Origin: Planctomycetaceae bacterium
Lineage (GTDB): Bacteria > Planctomycetota > Planctomycetia > Pirellulales > Pirellulaceae
Reading direction: 5' to 3'
DNA: 64,000 nt
NCBI GenBank assembly: GCA_007694185.1
Contig: RECD01000164.1
Span: 1 to 64,000 of the forward strand
Part shown: positions 113-4,762 of the stretch, piece after piece
How the letters are laid out: every line of letters begins with the position of its first letter
How positions within the stretch are numbered: the first letter of the stretch is position 1
Notes under the pieces: generated by a model
Databases searched by the model: none
What the model was told of the DNA's origin: nothing
The model's input: the letters and a program-made list of their open reading frames with translations, nothing else
Translations under genes and position numbers: made by a program

Positions 113-645
113 GATTCGGTGTCCGGAGTAGCGAGCAGGATCGGGTTCGTCCGCCGCTAATCATCGCCGAAAATGGCGCCGTGCGCGCCCTCCCCCCCTG
201 GTTTCCCTAAATTGCCCAAATTGCGCGTTGGCCCTGGGGGGGCGTTACTTCCCGGCAGAGCCCTATCTTCCGACCAGATAAAATCACTGTAGTTCGCAAT
301 TGACGTTGTGGATTTGTAATCCCGAATTTTTCATTCAGGGGTTTTTCGGGTGGAGAAGGGGAGTGCGTCGTTCGGTTTTTGTGTCGACTGGGAATATTTG
401 GGGCCAACGGCTGACCTCAAGGCGCAATGCCCTCTACCCCCAGAACGCGTTTCTCGACGATGGATTCCCTTACCAGCGAAGCACTTCGCTCAGGTGAGCG
501 GCTCCTTCGGAAGGTGCCACACATTTTTCAGGCTGTTCGTAATCGCGCCAGGTGCGGACAGTGCTAGGCAAGTCGCTGGAGGGCCTTCTGGCGGATCGGC
601 ATGGCTGACGGTAAAAAGCGGGGGCCATGCCTACCGCTTGAACTG
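113..645. other. Gene-less stretch left of the IS21-like remnant
   Basis: Several ORFs of 60-130 codons cross this stretch on both strands, but none shows a recognisable domain, a ribosome-binding site or a plausible start. The only structure I can support is an inverted copy of the GTGGCACCTTCC repeat at 502-530. The rest looks like decayed insertion-sequence DNA. Confidence 0.5.
502..530 (-). repeat. REP-like GTGGCACCTTCC element, inverted copy
   Basis: The plus strand reads CTCCTTCGGAAGGTGCCAC and then ACATTTTTCA. Its reverse complement matches the AAAAAATGGGTGGCACCTTCCGAAG units at 4231-4310 with few differences. The core CCTTCGGAAGG is itself palindromic. It is one of three places in the first 4.4 kb that carry this repeat, all close to RAYT-derived sequence. 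Confidence 0.6.
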
Positions 646-673
646 TGTCAGGCTGCCGCCGACGAGGTATCAG

Positions 674-718
674 TTGGCGCCCAAACGGTACCACCGATTG
701 GCGCCTGAAACGGTACCA
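674..718 (+). repeat. Two direct terminal repeats, TTGGCGCC-NN-AAACGGTACCA
   Basis: Copy one spans 674-693 and copy two 698-718. They share TTGGCGCC and AAACGGTACCA, separated by CA in copy one and TG with one extra A in copy two, at a period of about 24 bp. They lie about 70 bp upstream of an IstA-like start. IS21 elements carry such repeats at their ends as transposase-binding sites. Confidence 0.6.
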
Positions 719-789
719 GTTGATCCCTCACCCTCGGCTCTCGTCTGATGAACGGCTTTCTTCCCTGAAAGCCTACCCACGAGTGCCCC

Positions 790-900
790 ATGGCGAGTCA
801 ACTGGCGACGGATAAGTCCTTTGCAATCAAAAACTTACGACCCGCCGGCTACTCCGAGCGGCGAATCGCTCGGAGTCTCACGCGGAGCCGTTCGACGCCC
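790..900 (+). pseudogene. istA: istA 5' fragment, frameshifted (IS21 family)
   Basis: From the ATG at 790 the frame gives MASQLATDKSFAIKN, then GYSERRIARSL. This is the N-terminal helix-turn-helix region I associate with planctomycete IS21 transposases. The expected continuation SLGVSRGAVRR lies in another frame from 867. The break coincides with CTCGGAGT at 869-876. An intact gene needs that 8-mer twice in tandem to read ARSLGVSRG, so loss of one copy by slippage explains the shift. After about residue 37 no resemblance remains. Confidence 0.5.
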
Positions 901-936
901 CGAGGCAAACGGCGCCGACGGCTCTCGTCGGTCAGT

Positions 937-975
937 CGCCAGCAGCCTCGCTAGCTTCGGCGGTACCTTCACGTT
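937..975 (-). pseudogene. RAYT 3'-end scrap
   Basis: Read on the minus strand this 39-bp segment encodes NVKVPPKLARLLA. It aligns without gaps to positions 3735-3773 of the intact RAYT gene, which encodes NAKLPPRLAKLLA; by my count about 33 of 39 bases agree. Neighbouring sequence on either side does not continue the match. It is a second, diverged RAYT relic joined directly to the IS21-like fragment. Confidence 0.5.
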
Positions 976-1204
976 GGACGGAGGCGAGAGCTTCCATGCG
1001 TCTGGGAATCCAGCCGAGTCCATTGTCGCTGCAGGGTAGGCGCATTAAAACAGACAGCTCACTTTGCCTGCGCATCGCAGCTTGCCAGGATTCCTTGTAG
1101 AAACCGCCGATTTTTCTAAAAGTTTAAGGCCGTCGAAGAGATTCAATCGCGTTAAATTGCCGTTTTTGCCGAGAAATTAGATGCGACTACCCTGATTGTC
1201 GCTG
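976..1204. other. Intergenic stretch, no feature seen
   Basis: I see no coding sequence, repeat or structured element that I can support here. The second half, 1100-1200, is somewhat richer in A and T than its surroundings. It lies just beyond the 3' end of the minus-strand secreted protein gene. Confidence 0.4.
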
Positions 1205-2338
1205 CTAGGGGATCTCATCAGCGATCGGTCCGATGTAGCTCTTGGAGATCACCAAGTTATCGAAGTACACGATGTACTCGTCGACCTCGCTATCACGGTA
1301 GCTGCGTTCGGAAAGAAACCATTGTAGCTGCGCGCGGTTGATTTTAAGACTTTCGTGCGTTCGCCAACTGAAACCTTCGAAGGGCTGGGGGTTAGCGAAG
1401 TTCTCGAAAAACTGCCCGCGGGTGAAGAAATTCTCACGGAGCCAGCGACCTTGAGGCGAACCGGGTTTCCAGTGCCCGTAGTTGATCCCATCAATCCAGA
1501 ACGCCATCTCGCCGTCGTGCTCACCGACTTGGTTGAGTTTTATCATGTACTCGACGCAGATCCACGAGTCGCGTTCAAGCCGCGGCGTCTTCTTGGGATA
1601 GCCGAAGTTGTTGCCATAGTAAGCGCTGGGGCGACCATCCGACTTGCCCTCGGGTGTCTGCCAACTGCGCATTTCATGCCAGTATGTGTAGAACTGCCAG
1701 TAGCCGTCGGGGTTCTTGGGCGGTTCCAGCGTCGTGCCGAACGAACCGTTTTCGTCGCCGGGCGGGCGACGACCGGCCCCGCCACCCCAACGAAATTCAT
1801 AGGTCGGCGTGTTGCCTCCGACGTTGATGAAATGGTGCGGCATAGCGGTGTTCTTGTCGAAACGGACATAGACACGAACAAAAATCTGCTCAGCGCCTTC
1901 ATCCCACTGAATGCTCAGGTCGCCGCCTTCGTCCGCGCCTTTGGTGGCGACGATCCTGGCCGCCGCCCCACCGGTTCGGGCTAGGTCCGAATCCTCAATC
2001 AGCGACACGCCACGGCGTCGCGGGCGCAGGGGTGCTTCGATGCCTTTGGTGAAATCGGTGGCGTAGATCACATCGGGGTGTTCAGCAATGCCCTTGTCGC
2101 CGGGATACTGCGCCGCGACGCCACGGCCTTCGGGTTGTCGATATCGGGCTTCCTCGGCCAATGACTGGCCGACGAGCAGGCATGCGGCGATGAGGATCCA
2201 CTCACGGCGGAAGGCGAAATCCTTGCCGGTGATGTGATCAACGCCAGCAAGAAACACCCGCCGGGCGTACCGCAGCACGGCATGCACAATGCCAATCTCG
2301 GCTGCATGAAACTGGTCAAAGCAAACAGGTCTACCCAT
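1205..2338 (-). CDS. Secreted jelly-roll (polysaccharide-lyase-like) protein with a RAYT-derived start
   Basis: Residues 1-48 match the start of the neighbouring RAYT transposase (31 of 48 identical by my count, from MGRP to FRREWI). Then comes a signal-peptide core, LIAACLLVG, with LAEE after it. The rest (about residues 75-377) is Trp/Tyr/Gly-rich with YATDFTKG near the start and VYFDNLVISKSYIG at the end. That is the pattern of concanavalin-like or polysaccharide-lyase-like jelly-roll domains, probably acting outside the cytoplasm. No catalytic residues can be assigned. I chose the Met at 2338 because GGGGGA sits six bases upstream and it aligns with the RAYT start; an in-frame ATG at 2356 is possible. 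No in-frame ATG lies near the signal peptide itself, so the transposase piece supplies the start. Confidence 0.6.
   Translation of the reverse strand: MGRPVCFDQFHAAEIGIVHAVLRYARRVFLAGVDHITGKDFAFRREWILIAACLLVGQSLAEEARYRQPEGRGVAAQYPGDKGIAEHPDVIYATDFTKGIEAPLRPRRRGVSLIEDSDLARTGGAAARIVATKGADEGGDLSIQWDEGAEQIFVRVYVRFDKNTAMPHHFINVGGNTPTYEFRWGGGAGRRPPGDENGSFGTTLEPPKNPDGYWQFYTYWHEMRSWQTPEGKSDGRPSAYYGNNFGYPKKTPRLERDSWICVEYMIKLNQVGEHDGEMAFWIDGINYGHWKPGSPQGRWLRENFFTRGQFFENFANPQPFEGFSWRTHESLKINRAQLQWFLSERSYRDSEVDEYIVYFDNLVISKSYIGPIADEIP
2195..2338 (-). mobile_element. Captured 5' end of a RAYT transposase gene
   Basis: This segment encodes the RAYT-like first 48 residues of the downstream secreted protein. 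Homology to the intact RAYT (2781 onward) begins at its start codon and stops abruptly after GTGAGTGGAT, at about 2195. The two copies differ at about a third of residues, so this is not a recent duplicate of the neighbour but a piece of a related RAYT. Repeat DNA of the GTGGCACCTTCC type lies just upstream at 2383-2455. Confidence 0.6.
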
Positions 2339-2382
2339 GCTAAATCCCCCATCCAAAGAAACGATCGTCGCAGTCTACATGA

Positions 2383-2455
2383 GGGCGGTACCTTCCGTCA
2401 AACCGGTAAGTGGGTGGCGCCTTCCAAGCCAGCAAAGTGGGTGTCATCTTCAGCT
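2383..2455 (+). repeat. Diverged GTGGCACCTTCC repeat cluster
   Basis: Three imperfect units are visible: GGCGGTACCTTCCGTC, then GTGGGTGGCGCCTTCCAAG, then GTGGGTGTCATCTTCAGC. They resemble the better preserved units at 4231-4310 and lie immediately upstream of the RAYT-derived gene start at 2338. They are degraded and their boundaries are approximate. Confidence 0.5.
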
Positions 2456-4516: not shown

Positions 4517-4762
4517 ATGAGCGCGGATTGGTATTTCATGAAGCGTCGTTGGTTCGGCTGGTTTGGCCCGCCGAGGAAGGTCGGTCCGTTTTCGGACCAT
4601 GATCTGTTGGAACGGATCGACCGAGGTGAAGTCACGCCCGAGACGTTGCTGATGAATCGCGTCAAGACCAAACAGCGATGGGTAAAGATGTCGACGATCG
4701 GTCCGGCGTACAAGCATTGGCGTCACCGGCATCGCGAAGCGCCTATTGAACATAGCGGGTGA
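4517..4762 (+). CDS. Small GYF-2-like domain protein
   Basis: The 81-residue protein fits one GYF_2-type domain. It begins with WYFMKRR, has GPFSDHDLLERIDRGEVTPETLLMN in the middle and ends with a RWVKMSTI segment. The W-Y start, GPFS and the G-E-V-T-P-E-T-L strand are the hallmark positions of this planctomycete-abundant domain, thought to bind peptides or lipids. GAGGAA at 4505-4510 supports the start. The last 20 bp overlap the 3' end of the convergent kinase gene. The role is unknown. Confidence 0.6.
   Translation: MSADWYFMKRRWFGWFGPPRKVGPFSDHDLLERIDRGEVTPETLLMNRVKTKQRWVKMSTIGPAYKHWRHRHREAPIEHSG

Follow-up and report, generated by a model that had tools for sequence, protein, structure and literature searches.

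A predicted secreted, lyase-like protein whose gene begins with the start of a RAYT transposase

Introduction

How does a gene for a secreted protein come to begin with the first codons of a transposase? The question is raised by a locus of a planctomycete-like bacterium, located in a window of 64,000 nucleotides (the whole stretch of DNA that was analysed). Here an open reading frame combines, from its N- to its C-terminus, residues 1-48 of a RAYT transposase, a signal-peptide-like stretch and a jelly-roll domain, with a product that is predicted to be secreted and sugar-polymer-lyase-like. The original prediction, made from the DNA letters, considered this the capture of a transposase gene start by a host gene.

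The RAYT-derived start

The features of the chimeric gene and of the neighboring transposase are as follows.

1205..2338, minus strand: chimeric open reading frame, 377 amino acids, ATG start, 0 internal stops
2195..2338, minus strand: RAYT codons 1-48, ending at W47-I48, from the sequence match to RAYT N-termini
2156..2194, minus strand: hydrophobic stretch LIAACLLVGQSLA with EE directly behind it, read as a signal peptide h/c region by eye and hydropathy; the position fits the start region of relatives
1220..2080, minus strand: predicted beta jelly-roll domain with the PL14/PL36 alginate-lyase fold, residues 87-373, from the predicted structure and a weak match to Pfam PF21294
2781..3947, plus strand: intact RAYT of 388 amino acids, in head-to-head arrangement with the chimera; NF047646 E 3.9e-10, below the curated cut-off

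Congruent with the about 65% identity originally reported for residues 1-48 and the nearby RAYT, our recount yielded 31 of 48 shared residues (65% at the amino acid and 69% at the nucleotide level, E ~2e-13), and the best match anywhere, a RAYT copy in a congeneric genome, reaches 73%. Identity of 65-73% across the 48 residues places the segment among RAYT family N-termini, and upholds the proposal that start codon, Shine-Dalgarno position and first 48 codons come from RAYT. The homology ends as sharply after FRREWI as had been described. This end, codon 48, precedes the SNHLH and YVDLNP stretches of RAYT; the chimera lacks the HUH and catalytic Tyr motifs, and RAYT profile models do not match the chimeric protein.

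The 48 codons have diverged in a protein-like manner, with 41, 37 and 21 of 48 identities to the window RAYT at first, second and third codon positions, respectively. As 20,000 runs of random mutation at equal nucleotide divergence preserved on average 21 identical residues and at most 31, the number observed, the divergence appears largely protein-constrained rather than a product of chance. Seven residues occur in the chimera only, including R6, Q22, C24, V25 and S42 at positions that are near-invariant among the 63 RAYT N-termini compared. This is expected where transposase function is no longer selected, and suggests that the constraint on the transposase was lifted. Contigs of this draft genome break at RAYT copies elsewhere, raising the question of whether a repeat-driven misassembly produced the chimera. 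However, the longest stretch shared exactly with a RAYT copy seen in the genome measures 13 nt, and the reading frame continues through the junction, making such an artefact highly improbable.

RAYT N-termini are present in 122 of the 241 family genomes. Most of the best ~155 N-terminus matches were traced, one of the searches covering matches down to E ~1e-25, and no second RAYT-start fusion was found among those traced: all continue as RAYT, except for RAYT copies ended by contig ends or frame breaks. Several equal-scoring copies per genome were observed in G006 (four), G208 (five), G017, G162 and other family genomes, in contrast to the description of RAYTs as single-copy (PMC3116915). In G017 and G210 the RAYT matches end at residues 313-319 within open frames of at least 460 residues, hinting at variable C-termini. 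In two genomes, moreover, a full RAYT is preceded, some 600 bp upstream, by an equally oriented RAYT that breaks off at about residue 160:

G152:C1:5523429 and 5524018 (L055/L092): truncated and full RAYT
G162:C1:2964590 and 2965263 (L148): truncated and full RAYT

The putatively secreted, lyase-like part

Around the end of the RAYT segment, RREW, LIAACLLVGQSLA and EE form a signal-peptide-like layout, as judged by eye and hydropathy, with the hydropathy peak (2.67) at WILIAACLLVG. Inspection by eye also suggested a lipobox (IAAC), which was rejected because its hydrophobic stretch is too short. The remainder was modeled with AlphaFold from a six-sequence input (mean pLDDT 61.5), and the closest folds of the jelly-roll model are 5gmt (Z 18.5), 3gne (Z 17.9) and 6kcw (Z 17.3). 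The match to the PL14 structure 5gmt agrees with the jelly-roll domain that had been proposed, while PF21294 yields a weak hit below its cut-off (E 0.0064, 16.7 bits, cut-off 27) and a search of solved structures by sequence returned nothing. The domain is predicted to be a beta jelly-roll closest to PL14/PL36 alginate lyases, with a putative lyase activity. In the domain tree it occupies a long branch of uncertain placement.

Relatives of the domain were surveyed in 241 family and 396 order genomes, and were recovered from 66 of the 241. None of the ~100 relatives listed in these surveys carries a RAYT part; in the order-wide search no jelly-roll match extends upstream of residue 37, and the matches over residues 1-49 are RAYT starts. 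The original prediction had proposed to examine the usual N-terminus of such relatives, and those that were fetched possess an ordinary Met and signal peptide, never a RAYT piece, beginning at or slightly before the point where the RAYT part of the chimera stops. As relatives start in this manner at this position, the native start of the gene is gone, with the RAYT start in its place.

Expression signals and the start codon

Upstream of the chimeric gene, the following elements were found.

2345..2352, minus strand: Shine-Dalgarno-like ATGGGGGA, 6 nt from the ATG, by pairing energy
2372..2401, minus strand: TTGACG-18-TAGACT, resembling a sigma-70 promoter, ahead of the start; chance alone would give about one such site
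2384..2451, minus strand: degenerate REP copies of the GGAAGGCGCCACCCACTT and GGAAGGTACCGCC types, placed as upstream of intact RAYTs

The exact REP pattern occurs 29 times in this genome vs 0 for a reversed control, and REP copies are present on both flanks of the chimeric gene, as befits a REP-associated locus. The ATG is preceded by the Shine-Dalgarno-like GGGGGA with a duplex energy of -8.4 kcal/mol and 6 nt spacing, while the corresponding value of the intact RAYT is -13.1. It had been stated that no in-frame ATG lies near the signal peptide. Indeed, none exists from codon 1 to the hydrophobic stretch, but in-frame GTGs at codons 18, 21 and 28 went unmentioned. These permit a different scenario, where most of the RAYT part is an untranslated leader and translation begins at GTG28 (or GTG18/21), which from GTG28 would give a signal peptide of more usual length with a 21-residue n-region. 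We regard this as unlikely, because the strongest pairing is found, properly spaced, at the ATG (-3.0 at GTG18, and at best -4.4 at GTG28, without spacing), and because codons 1-27 are open with protein-like divergence, though much of the latter may predate the joining. Translation is hence likely to start at the RAYT ATG, as judged from these signals.

RAYT relics downstream of the gene

Comparison of the minus-strand DNA with RAYT copies uncovered three further RAYT pieces 3' of the chimera stop, collinear and on the same strand, and a repeat among them.

977..1012, minus strand: RAYT relic, codons 47-58, matching other RAYT copies of the genome at 34/36 nt
916..975, minus strand: RAYT relic, codons 319-338, 73-75% identical
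497..667, minus strand: relic of the RAYT 3' flank with REP at its end, 78-80% identical to flanks of RAYT copies in this genome and G222
655-915, plus strand reading MASQLATDKSFAIKNLRPAGYSERRIARSL...: dispersed repeat resembling the 5' end of an IS21-type transposase gene, copies of 84-85% on C173 and C28

The first relic reads WIPRRMEALASV, compared to WIRRRMEALASV in the RAYT copies of the genome, and starts at W47, the very break point of the upstream piece; RAYT codons 59-318 are missing between it and the second. Alignment scores of 28 (codons 47-58), 28 (codons 319-338) and 45 (3' flank) exceed the maximum of 20 from 300 dinucleotide shuffles of the region. The IS21-like repeat splits the RAYT relic.

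TGGATC closes the upstream RAYT piece and TGGATT opens the downstream one, both at codon 47/48 of RAYT. The two halves overlap by 6-7 bp, TGGATY(C), and enclose a gene segment of 1.18 kb. Such a short overlap would remain after insertion with duplication of a short target site, or after joining at microhomology; no convincing terminal inverted repeats were detected at either end of the enclosed segment. Capture of a transposase start, as first proposed, therefore holds for the RAYT-derived start, but is incomplete, as RAYT pieces in the same orientation are also found downstream of the stop.

Origin of the chimera

As RAYT pieces on both sides meet at codon 47/48, the gene is most likely embedded in a broken RAYT rather than placed behind a stray 5' fragment. 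Our leading interpretation, to which we attach about even confidence, is that the host gene is placed in a broken RAYT copy and appears to use the start of that copy. The process would begin with a gene that encodes a secreted PL14/PL36-like protein but has no start codon of its own, and this gene would be joined into a RAYT copy at codon 47/48, in shared orientation and frame. The remainder of the RAYT would then decay downstream, leaving codons 47-58, codons 319-338 and the 3' flank with REP, while transcription and translation would begin at the 5' end of the RAYT, with its REP region, weak Shine-Dalgarno and ATG. In the protein the 48-residue piece would act as an unusually long n-region before the hydrophobic stretch, probably being lost by cleavage of the signal peptide upon export. 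That it was the gene that entered the RAYT we infer from the arrangement of the pieces. The flanking RAYT pieces are collinear, on one strand and share a break point with a 6-7 bp overlap, and the RAYT part is frame-intact with divergence biased to third positions, which argues for a single element.

The ages of the pieces argue in the opposite direction. In the tree the 48-codon piece branches outside the clade formed by the RAYTs of this genome, in another lineage, and its divergence exceeds that of the downstream relics taken together (45/144 vs 17/96, P 0.024), particularly at third positions (27/48 vs 17/96 in the pooled relics, P 6e-6). One copy of one age should lack such a gap, which counts against insertion into a single RAYT, as does the shortness of the relics (36 and 60 nt). 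A hybrid RAYT or partial gene conversion would reconcile the gap with one element.

Two independent RAYT insertions, an older one of the other lineage upstream and a younger one downstream, would explain the differences in lineage and age directly. Here the upstream RAYT would have lost everything past codon 48 through a gene-fusing deletion, equivalent to capture, and the downstream RAYT codons 1-46. The locus is full of RAYT, REP and IS debris, and in G225 a homologue of the domain divergently adjoins the same single-copy small gene as in the window, hinting at an old gene site, although the close orthologue of the G225 gene in G222 does not adjoin it. This history would also require that both RAYTs share one orientation and broke independently within ~10 nt of one RAYT point (~1% by length alone). 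We consider this history plausible though less probable, and rank insertion into one broken RAYT above it, without certainty.

The small gene is GYF-like (window 4517-4762) and divergent from the jelly-roll gene across the RAYT. It likewise adjoins the homologue in G225 (L128, G225:C211), while in G222 and G223 it is next to the kinase gene instead. No syntenic empty site was found; the wider gene order is not conserved, with only the small gene at 4517 adjoining a domain homologue (G225).

A further scenario, that a REP-bounded RAYT element took up the host gene at codon 47/48 as cargo, with RAYT/REP elements moving and expressing passengers, seems very improbable to us.

On balance we favor insertion of the gene into one RAYT copy, and the locus then offers a readable case of a start-less bacterial gene rescued by the expression signals of a transposase gene. 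Thanks to the relic pieces, related strains can be used to test in which order the events took place, and, if the gene truly landed in the RAYT, the case bears on RAYT/REP loci as landing sites for other genes.

Comparison with known systems

Chimeric genes with transposase coding sequence are a known general class. The gene described here shares with them a transposase segment in frame with a host gene, but differs in that the segment is a non-catalytic start only. While chimeric genes built with mobile elements are thus a known kind of event in general, the present form, and any bacterial RAYT case of such a gene, was not found in the literature searched.

With the RAYT / TnpA-REP family (NCBIfam NF047646; REPIN-RAYT, PMC3116915; class 2, PMC6006769) the locus has in common the first 48 codons, the REP-bearing 5' region and the relics. 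The chimera in contrast lacks the transposase core, with its HUH and Tyr motifs past residue 48, and its C-terminal 329 residues are unrelated. Towards PL14/PL36 (AkAly PL14, 5gmt; vAL-1, 3gne; Aly36B, 6kcw) the likeness is the predicted beta jelly-roll, with Z of 17-18.5 over 213-222 residues, but identities are 15-17% and PF21294 is under its cut-off.

Extended Sec signal peptides are represented by EspP, with 55 residues, and signal sequences exceeding 40 residues occur in autotransporters (PMC2805444). If translated, the chimera resembles these in having an N-terminal extension before the usual hydrophobic stretch, except that its extension is transposase-derived and the protein is not an autotransporter. 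By analogy with such long signal sequences, an extension of 48 residues would not be unheard of.
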